This document shows, piece after piece, positions 37,202 through 40,795 of a DNA stretch of 57,277 nt. The DNA comes from Syntrophorhabdaceae bacterium. Its GTDB lineage: Bacteria; Desulfobacterota; Syntrophorhabdia; Syntrophorhabdales; Syntrophorhabdaceae. The translations under genes were made by a program, and so were the position numbers. The stretch lies in the NCBI GenBank assembly GCA_035541755.1, contig DATKMQ010000031.1, positions 1 through 57,277 on the forward strand, given 5' to 3'. The first letter of the stretch is position 1; each line of letters opens with the position of its first letter. A model generated the notes under the pieces. The model worked only from the letters and a program-made list of their open reading frames with translations. It did not search any database and was not told where the DNA came from.

Positions 37202-39058
37202 ATGGGAACCGGATCTATTCGCTTTGTTCTGACGAGGACCGCCGCACTATGCATGTGTATTGCCTGCTTTCTGTCTGTTGCGGGGGTAACGCACGCCGCG
37301 GTTACGCTTGCGGTACTCAATCCCCAGGGAGAAATAGCCCCACCGCCCGTCTTCGTGCCTACGGCCCGTGTGGCAAGCCTTGACGGCAAGAAAATAGGCA
37401 TCTACTGGAACGGCAAACAAGGCGGAGAGAACTTTTGGGACGTGGTGGAAGAACAACTCAAGACCAGGTATCCTTCGGCTGAGGTTATACGATACAAAGG
37501 CCCTTTTGACCTCGGGCAAGCCATGGCGGAAAAGATCGCCAAGGAGTGCGACGTCTTCATGTACGGCGTGGGTGACTGAGGCTCCTGCAGCTGGGCCGGC
37601 GTGTCCGGTGCCATCAGGTTAGAGAAGCTTGGAAAACCGGTTGTCTATATCGTAGCAGACAATTTTTCCCATGATGCCGAACTATCCGCTGAAGATAATG
37701 GAATGCCCACACTTCGAAGGGTGGCGGTGCCGGGAGAAGAATTCTTTCAGCGGCGGATAAGCCGTGATCAGATAAAGCCTGTCGCAAATAGCGCGGTACA
37801 GGTCCTCATCGCGGGCTTGACCCGTCCGCTCACCAGAGAGGAACTGAATCCCAAACCAAAAAAGACCGCCATGGACAGGATAATCAAGATCACGGCGGAA
37901 AATTACGGAGCAGCCCTGGAGAAATTCAACGCCCTCTTCCTGGCCAATCATTGGGGCAGCGGGCTTCCGCTTATCCCGCCGACGCCAGAGCGGGTCAAAT
38001 GGATGCTCTCCGGTACAAGCCGGTCTAAAGACGAGGTGGTCGGCATCGTCGCTCCGAAGAACGGTAAAGCGACCGTAGAGAAGATCGCAATCAACGCAGT
38101 AATGGCTGGGGCCAAACCCGAGTATCTGCCCGTGATCATAGCGGCTATGGAAGGTTTTACCGCCAAAGATTACGACCTTGTGCACGTGCTCACCTCCTCG
38201 GGCTCCTTTTTTCCTGCCGTCATCGTACACGGGCCCATAGCTAAAGAGATCGGCATGAATTCAGGAACCGGCCTCATTGGCCACGGATTCAGGGCAAACA
38301 ACACCATCGGTCATGCCCTTCGTTTGAGTCTTTTAAATATCGGTCATCTCTGGCCCGGGGAGAACGATATGGCGCTCATAGGGCGCGTTTCCTCCCACAC
38401 ATTTTTCACCTTTGCCGAAAATGAACAGTTCAGTCCCTGGGAACCCTACCATGTGAGCATCGGTTTCAAGAAGGACGAGAGCGCGGTCACCGTTTCGACC
38501 GTGGGCGGATACACGGCAACAACCGGTATGACCGTGTACGGAGGAGGAGCTGTGGCGGTCTGGAGCGCCGATTCAATCCTCGATGCGATCGTCGCCGATA
38601 TAAGCCACGATCGGCGCATATTCACCCTGTTCAAGCGAGGGCAGGCAATACCGTCCGCGCACCCGTCCAAACACATCCTGGTGCTTGCGCCTGAGTTTGC
38701 CAGAGAACTGAACAGAAGAGGTTACACCAGGGCAAGTCTGCAGAAATATCTCTACGAAAAAACGAGCATACCGTTCGAAGAGTTGACCGCACAGGAAGTA
38801 AAGGCGGTTAGGGACAGGATCGAAGGCAGCAAGGCCCGCGACATGCTGCACTACGATATTATGCCTACTGACAGGATACCTGCCTATGAAGAAGTATTGA
38901 AGCCTGGCGGAAAGGTTCCGGTCGTTATCGCCCCCAGGGATATCACAATCCTTGTATCGGGCGGCATACCGGCTTATACGTTCGGCATGTCCTATTTCAG
39001 GGTTTCGCAGGAGACGAAACTCGTGCACGGCGCCACACTCACGAAAAGCGGGCGTTGA
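37202..39058 (+). CDS. Exported UGSC-family selenoprotein
   Basis: Two open frames, 37202-37579 and 37601-39058, lie in the same frame and are joined by one TGA at 37577-37579. Reading it as selenocysteine gives a 618-aa protein with Sec at residue 126 in the motif D-U-G-S-C-S-W, the signature of the UGSC (seleno)protein family. A signal peptide (about residues 1-32, ending THA) sends it to the periplasm. The first 190 residues form the UGSC domain. The remaining 430, with NHWGSGLPLIPPTPERV and SGTGLIGHGFRANNTIGHA, form a second conserved domain of unknown function. A SECIS-like hairpin follows the UGA. The ribosome-binding site is AGGAGGAAACC. It is the first gene of an exported redox operon. 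Confidence 0.9.
37580..37618 (+). promoter_or_regulatory. SECIS-like element of the UGSC gene
   Basis: A hairpin pairs CCTG (37584-37587) with CAGG (37615-37618) and, after internal loops, CCGG (37596-37599) with CCGG (37605-37608). The apical loop CGTGT is about 20 nt past the UGA and has G in its second position. This fits the bacterial SECIS layout read by SelB. Confidence 0.6.
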
Positions 39059-39157
39059 CGACTTATGGGACTCAGGTCCCGCTCCAAGGTATTGAGGGAA
39101 TCCGGTGGCGGCCACTCTTGTCTTAGGCTGCTGCCTTGTGAAGAGGAGGGATACAGG

Positions 39158-39580
39158 GTGTTATCACTAAAAAAGCTCGCATTCATTCTGGTTGTCATGA
39201 TAGCTATGACGCCTTACGCAGCTAGGATATGTAAAGCAAGCCACGAAGAGATTCCGCGCATTACCATCGAGGAACTTAAACGCCTTATCGACTCCGGAAC
39301 TGACGTGGTGATAATTGATGCCCAGGTAAAGAGTCTCTACAATAGAGGGCATATCAGGAAGGCGATAAATCTTCCCTGGAAGACAAGAGTCACGCTCACC
39401 GACGTCGAGAATATTCCGCCGGACAAACTCGTCGTGGTCTATTGCGATTGCGGACCAGGCGAATCGGACAGTTCCGATATAGCCGCTCAGCTATCTTCCC
39501 TCGGATATTTCGACGTCAAGGTGTTGGCGGATCCCTCCATACGGGGCTGGATTGAGGCAGGTTATCCCGTAGAGAAATAG
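39158..39580 (+). CDS. Exported rhodanese-like sulfurtransferase
   Basis: This 140-aa protein starts at GTG 39158, preceded by GAGGAGGGA, and opens with a signal peptide (about residues 1-27). The longer frame to 39065 would bury that signal. The single rhodanese domain shows VVIIDAQVKSLYNRGHI with the N-terminal Asp, GHIRKAINLPW, and an active-site loop beginning at VVYCDCGPGES. The catalytic Cys is thus part of a CDC pair. It would carry or transfer sulfur (or selenium) in the periplasm. It ends 2 nt before the cytochrome gene, inside the selenoprotein operon. Confidence 0.88.
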   Translation: MLSLKKLAFILVVMIAMTPYAARICKASHEEIPRITIEELKRLIDSGTDVVIIDAQVKSLYNRGHIRKAINLPWKTRVTLTDVENIPPDKLVVVYCDCGPGESDSSDIAAQLSSLGYFDVKVLADPSIRGWIEAGYPVEK

Positions 39581-39582
39581 AA

Positions 39583-40068
39583 ATGCGCATGTTCTCCTAT
39601 CCCGCGGTTATGGCCTTGCTGATCTTCTGTTGTGTGCGTATCGGACAAGAAAGTCCCGCGTATGCCCAGGATGCCTCAGGAAATTACGTGGGCTTTAAGG
39701 CCTGTTCCTCATGCCATCAAACCCTCACAGAAGGCTGGCTCACCACAAGGCACGCCAGGACATTCGAGAGTCTCAAGAAATCCTCCCAGGAGAATCTGCC
39801 CGGGTGCGTGAAATGCCATGTAACGGGCTACGGGGAGGACGGCGGATTTATCGATTACGATCTCACCCCTGAGATGGCCGGTGTCCAATGCGAGCAGTGC
39901 CACGGCGCAGGGCGTAAACACGTCGAAACGGGCGGGGAAGTGGGGCTTCCGGTCCGCTCAATGGGACAAGCCGCTTGCAGAAGATGCCATACGCCTGGTC
40001 AGGATGCAAACTTCGACTACCAAAAAAAGGTCCGGTCTGTTCACGGGTCTCAAGTCCTGAATAAATGA
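39583..40068 (+). CDS. Periplasmic four-heme cytochrome c (c554-like)
   Basis: This 161-aa secreted protein has a signal peptide ending around PAYA (about residue 29). Four CxxCH heme sites follow: CSSCH, CVKCH, CEQCH and CRRCH. His residues that could serve as distal ligands are present (TTRHARTFESL, GRKHVETGG). The layout resembles the cytochrome c554/NapC-independent small multiheme group. It could deliver or accept electrons for the neighbouring selenoproteins; this is inference from position only. Confidence 0.9.
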   Translation: MRMFSYPAVMALLIFCCVRIGQESPAYAQDASGNYVGFKACSSCHQTLTEGWLTTRHARTFESLKKSSQENLPGCVKCHVTGYGEDGGFIDYDLTPEMAGVQCEQCHGAGRKHVETGGEVGLPVRSMGQAACRRCHTPGQDANFDYQKKVRSVHGSQVLNK

Positions 40069-40084
40069 CAGGGGAGAATACGAA

Positions 40085-40795
40085 ATGAAGAAGAAACAGA
40101 GAAGACTGGGTGCTATCTTTATGGGACTTCTTTTTCTTGCCTGCCTTACGGGGTCGGCTTACGGCGGCGCTGGAAGACTGAGCGCCGAGCCTCTCTCTCA
40201 CGACTTCGGTGTCATCGACGAAGGAGCTACGGCCCGCGTGTCGGTCACGCTCACAAACGTAGGAGATGCCGATCTCACCATAACGGAAGTGAGGACCAAC
40301 TGAGCGTGCACCGAGGGCGCGCTTGGTAAGCGCGTGTTGAAACCGAAAGAAACGACTGCCCTCATTATCACTTACGCCACATCGGGACTCCCGGGTCCCT
40401 TCAAAAAAACTATCGACATATCTACGGATGCCGATACCCAAGAAACTGAGATCGTAATGACGGGAGAGGTGCGAGAAGCCCCCAGTGCAAAGATTCAGGT
40501 GGATCCGCGGAGGATTGACATCACAGTCCCCCAGGGTACGGAGCAGAGACAGATAATTACCATAAGAAATACGGGAAACCTTCCGCTCGTCATCAAAAAG
40601 ATTTACTCGCAGGAAACCGGAAAAGTCTACTTAGAGCCGAGGCCGGAACTTGTGATCGAACCGGGTAAATCGGTCACGAGCGAAATAAACATCATCCGGC
40701 GAGTGCAAGGGATGTTCAGAGAAATGATCGTGGTCGAGACTAACGCACGAAATGCTTTAAACGGCCGATTCATGATCATGGCTACCGGGAAATAG
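40085..40795 (+). CDS. Exported DUF1573-domain selenoprotein (UxC motif)
   Basis: Two same-frame segments, 40085-40303 and 40304-40795, are split by TGA at 40301-40303. Readthrough gives 236 aa with Sec at residue 73. The N-terminal signal peptide ends near SAYG. The first domain is DUF1573, an ASH/PapD-like beta fold: HDFGVIDEGATARVSVTLTN, then VRTN-U-A-C-T, then LKPKETTALIITY. In the family this spot normally reads SCGCT, so Sec replaces the first Cys of the CxC. A second similar beta domain follows (about 135-236). A 7-bp perfect hairpin with a GGT loop begins 15 nt after the UGA. The ribosome-binding site is GGGGAG. It lies 16 nt after the cytochrome. Confidence 0.85.
40304..40338 (+). 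promoter_or_regulatory. SECIS-like element of the DUF1573 gene
   Basis: A perfect stem CGCGCTT (40318-40324) / AAGCGCG (40328-40334) closes the loop GGT (40325-40327). The loop starts about 21 nt after the UGA and its first two bases are G. Both values lie inside the accepted bacterial SECIS window (roughly 16-37 nt, G in the first two loop positions). Confidence 0.75.

Follow-up and report, generated by a model that had tools for sequence, protein, structure and literature searches.

Does the TGA codon that lies in frame within a DUF1573 gene of a Syntrophorhabdaceae bacterium mark the end of a protein, or is it read as selenocysteine, and which role could a selenium-containing form of this domain play? 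We know DUF1573 as a domain of wide distribution whose CxC motif is invariant, and know of no chemistry assigned to it. The gene is found in a stretch of 57,277 nucleotides (contig DATKMQ010000031.1), here called the window, whose relevant features are collected in Table 1. With a GAGG-like ribosome site ahead of its ATG, the frame from 40085 to 40795, which terminates with TAG, is interrupted only by the TGA at 40301-40303. A first-pass annotation had seen this codon split two segments of one frame, had placed it where the CxC has its first Cys and had assigned the downstream half to the same fold, and all three observations were borne out. The 236-residue protein obtained by read-through matched PF07610 (DUF1573) with 96.5 bits (cut-off 26.1), as well as PF22544, and its first DUF1573 domain runs across the TGA (67.1 bits, Pfam). 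In an alignment of 13 DUF1573 homologues the CxC is invariant, and the TGA of the window gene sits on its first Cys. The N-terminus, judged by eye, looks like a Sec-type signal peptide.

Table 1. Features of the DUF1573 locus in the window.
Feature	Positions	Strand	Remarks
Long UGSC-family predicted selenoprotein	37202..39058	+	618 aa with TGA as Sec; profile matches
In-frame TGA of the UGSC gene (VGD-U-GSC)	37577..37579	+	Many one-TGA homologues
Rhodanese-like protein, Cys in active loop (CDCGPGE)	39065..39580	+	N-terminus looks exported
Exported tetraheme c554-like cytochrome, 4 CXXCH	39583..40068	+	Directly 5' of the DUF1573 gene
DUF1573 predicted selenoprotein gene	40085..40795	+	236 aa with TGA as Sec; two Ig-like domains
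In-frame TGA, predicted Sec73 of VRTN-U-ACT	40301..40303	+	Falls at first Cys of CxC
SECIS-like hairpin, 8 bp (7 Watson-Crick pairs and a terminal G-U), GGT loop	40317..40335	+	Covariation over four sequences
Second Ig-like domain (choice-of-anchor D / ASH-like)	40493..40792	+	Profile matches and structure model

A search for homologues with TGA at the first Cys, which the first-pass annotation had proposed, found them with TGA in the same column in a genome of the same family (G019, VKTNUACT), in a Syntrophaceae MAG of the same order (G043, VRTSUACT) and in a further genome of the same phylum (G089, VTTSUACT), so that the TGA of the window aligns with the Cys of other homologues and stays TGA in relatives. 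More distant homologues carry UGC at this site (e.g. L018, L020, L021, L066, L077 and L080-L087). Among the 78 DUF1573 matches listed for a phylum sample of 395 genomes, 21 contain exactly one TGA, while no stop of any kind was found in 36 matches from nine Bacteroidota genomes lacking selA (Fisher p = 1.6e-4). These Bacteroidota were used as the control since, within the phylum sample, a genome with a DUF1573 match nearly always has selB as well, so that co-occurrence barely discriminates there; selB scored above its cut-off in all genomes bearing a DUF1573 gene with TGA, with the exception of G052, a MAG that is 85% complete. The genome of the window itself (3.85 Mb) contains selA (583.5 bits), selB (377.6 bits) and a tRNA-Sec with UCA anticodon (76.3 bits); selA and selB are among the genes that the first-pass annotation had named as a check. 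An Rfam scan of the window returned a single tRNA and nothing else.

The hairpin that had been described as a perfect 7-bp stem closed by a GGT loop is indeed present, closely 3' of the TGA, with its core (CGCGCTT-GGT-AAGCGCG) at 40318-40334, extended by a terminal G-U pair (40317/40335) and with G in the apical loop. In all four genes with the U-A-C motif the GG of the loop lies at +22/+23 from the TGA, inside an 8-bp stem in which four of the eight pairs show compensatory changes and 96.9% of the cells are paired, these values being based on four sequences, which are all the known members of the clade; when one partner was slid by 1-3 columns, at most 62.5% were paired. Positions +9 to +38 (30 bases) fold with a median of -9.9 kcal/mol in 23 TGA genes vs -4.6 kcal/mol in 37 Cys genes (Mann-Whitney p = 5e-9), and the shuffle z of the same stretch is -2.3 after TGA vs 0.0 in Cys genes (p = 3e-8), p-values that overstate independence since the genes compared are kin. 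On a window stretch of 48 bases the lowest-energy fold is an alternative pairing, the expected hairpin being the best one on 30 bases. Taken together, the Sec machinery, the conserved TGA column and the covarying SECIS-like hairpin strongly support selenocysteine as the residue in this first CxC position. As far as can be judged from sequence, the UGA at 40301 is almost certainly decoded as selenocysteine, and the product of the gene is almost certainly an exported selenocysteine protein.

Selenocysteine in this domain has a history. DUF1573 proteins with Sec entered the literature in 2007-2008, and the original report is said to be a study of Olavius symbionts from 2007. DUF1573 selenoproteins with a UxC site are in the literature as OS_HP2 (pfam07610; PMC2398784), and a "DUF1573 domain-containing protein" with UGC is listed in PMC9312934 and PMC13188914, where it is credited to the 2007 Olavius symbiont study; the carriers are mostly Deltaproteobacteria-type bacteria (PMC2398784, PMC9312934, PMC13188914). 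The first-pass reading of this residue as Sec is strongly supported; its supposition that the family is absent from published selenoproteomes is wrong, and the same three papers rule out that Sec is in itself new to DUF1573.

The window protein shares with OS_HP2 (NCBIfam model NF041425) the DUF1573 domain, the UxC site within it and the replacement of the first CxC cysteine by Sec. It differs in its U-A-C motif, in belonging to a separate, supported clade and in its tetraheme cytochrome partner. Against NF041425, with a cut-off of 100, several UGC members of the same phylum scored 100-114 bits, whereas the window protein reached 53.5 bits and two other members of the UAC clade 60 bits, which places it on a branch of its own among the DUF1573 selenoproteins. 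The Cys DUF1573 proteins with SCGCT, for their part, resemble the window protein in fold, in the position of the CxC and, by look, in the export signal; they have Cys for Sec, and no stable hairpin follows the codon.

A tree built from 62 domains (one row, L077, is labelled CUG though its motif is UGC) unites the four UAC genes in a single clade with support 99/92, all of them with Sec. The gene is sporadic, to judge from the three carriers found among the 46 genomes of the window's class; the one other genome of the window's genus lacks it, and searches of the window's class and of that of G089 added none to the four UAC genes. A second group, seen in one family of the phylum (f34), has the site C-U-G (L065, L070, L074, L075, L078, L079, L088 and L094), as KPCUGV or KPCUGA and in L078 as HTUGV; the second Cys has disappeared, and most members have a Cys ahead of the Sec. 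Its hairpin is conserved, with a CGGG-type loop and compensatory changes in five of seven pairs (eight genes), and the one member tested against NF041425 scored 72.5 bits, under the cut-off. Both this sister group and the UAC branch, with its second Ig domain and its location in a cytochrome/rhodanese/UGSC module, are apparently new; in the open-licence literature, no paper was found on a module of cytochrome, rhodanese, UGSC and DUF1573. One genome, G377, has a Sec DUF1573 (L074) and two Cys paralogues (L095, L096) adjacent on the tree, a natural set for comparing the Sec and Cys forms.

An AlphaFold2 model of the window protein (pLDDT 88) consists of two beta sandwiches; in its first Ig domain, residues 72-75, which include the UxC, lie in the loop that connects strands 64-71 and 76-80. 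Foldseek matched it to HYDIN/CEP192-type Ig domains and to 2qsv, a Porphyromonas protein of unknown function, and neither a thioredoxin fold nor an enzyme domain was found in the model or by Foldseek; a PDB sequence search gave no meaningful match. The likeness to HYDIN/ASH/CEP192 SPD-2 Ig-like domains, seen by Foldseek and by Pfam PF22544, is one of fold. These domains are eukaryotic ciliary and centrosomal scaffolds, in which we know of no UxC or CxC redox site.

The genes around it offer a context for function. The same cytochrome lies immediately 5' of the DUF1573 gene with Sec in G000, G019 and G089, and in G043 (L033, 5497-6654) the tetraheme c554-like cytochrome and the DUF1573 selenoprotein form one open frame of 385-392 codons. 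DUF1573 with a CxC or UxC site repeatedly partners c-type cytochromes. In two Cys-type genes (L014, L038) the frame continues into cytochrome-like sequence bearing CXXCH motifs (CTSCH...CAYCH/CAMCH). Rhodanese and UGSC neighbours are common to G000, G019 and G043, and the gene order in G019 and G043 is rhodanese, cytochrome, DUF1573-Sec, UGSC-Sec. The UGSC gene of the window, 3 kb 5' of the DUF1573 gene in the same gene run, is a member of its family (NF041046, PF24696), to which it adds a long C-terminal region; it scored 105.7 bits against PF24696 (cut-off 25) and 87.9 bits against NF041046, under the cut-off of 125. Two further long UGSC paralogues with one TGA each are located on another contig of the same genome. 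The cytochrome also resembles the C-terminal part of NF041198, a UshA-like (seleno)protein (120 bits, positions 400-519), hinting at a wider link between such cytochromes and selenoproteins.

The product is seen, with high confidence as regards the Sec protein itself, as an exported two-domain Ig-fold selenoprotein, for which a relay with the cytochrome would be the most likely role. SelB and tRNA-Sec would decode the UGA at 40301, the hairpin just 3' acting as SECIS. The Sec and Cys of the U-A-C could form a pair that cycles between selenenylsulfide and selenol-thiol, and this pair would pass electrons between a substrate and the adjacent cytochrome; an in-frame fusion with a tetraheme cytochrome speaks for electron transfer, and the rhodanese neighbour suggests sulfur compounds as the substrate, perhaps a sulfur compound or persulfide handled by that protein. 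The relay would sit in a module with one more exported selenoprotein, a member of the UGSC family. To such a proposed periplasmic Sec/Cys redox relay we would give about an even chance. The wider proposal, that UAC DUF1573, cytochrome, rhodanese and UGSC constitute an exported respiratory or detoxification module with two selenoproteins and one periplasmic selenium-dependent electron-transfer pathway, is put forward tentatively.

It could also be the case that the UxC is a high-affinity ligand for soft metals or metalloids (Cu, Hg, As), the protein being a periplasmic metal chaperone or sink. A rigid Ig fold that has no enzyme domain and holds two soft ligands at a spacing of two residues would suit this role, and Sec has been suggested to act as a metal ligand in some other selenoproteins that are exported, SaoB and SaoC among them (PMC13188914). 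However, the genes next to it code for a c-type cytochrome, a rhodanese and a UGSC selenoprotein, with neither efflux pumps nor metal regulators among them, the MFS transporter 3' of the DUF1573 gene is limited to the window, and the fusion points to electron transfer, so that metal binding is considered rather unlikely. A function in cytochrome c maturation, either in heme delivery or with the Sec/Cys pair reducing the CXXCH thiols of the neighbour before attachment, would account for an exported thiol/selenol protein being encoded beside, or fused to, a cytochrome with four CXXCH motifs; it is improbable, since only one cytochrome partner is seen, a fused protein would stay with its cytochrome after maturation and the window protein has no thioredoxin fold.

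Two other alternatives concern the codon itself. The frame does contain a TGA, and this could be a dead stop in a pseudogene, but the same column is TGA in diverged homologues, none of the 78 matches listed for the phylum sample has TAA or TAG, GC3 is 0.597 5' of the TGA and 0.595 3' of it, which gives no sign of decay downstream, and the hairpin is conserved and covarying; a pseudogene, rejected on these grounds, is very hard to credit. General recoding of UGA to another amino acid in this organism, for which no support was found, is more remote still, since the genome has canonical Sec machinery with tRNA-Sec(UCA) and TGA terminates both the UGSC gene (39056-39058) and the cytochrome gene (40066-40068).

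The selenoprotein reading bears on how the family is annotated and understood. The UAC clade falls under the cut-off of the OS_HP2 model, and standard annotation may therefore end these genes at the UGA. On the 62-domain tree the Cys label changes seven times, at least five of these changes being forced by well supported branches, which indicates that Sec and Cys have been swapped several times; a repeated exchange exactly at the first Cys implies that this residue does chemistry worth the cost of selenium. The cytochrome partnership, together with the fusion, gives DUF1573 a concrete, testable partner, and if the proposed module is true, the domain would gain its first defined biochemical role.
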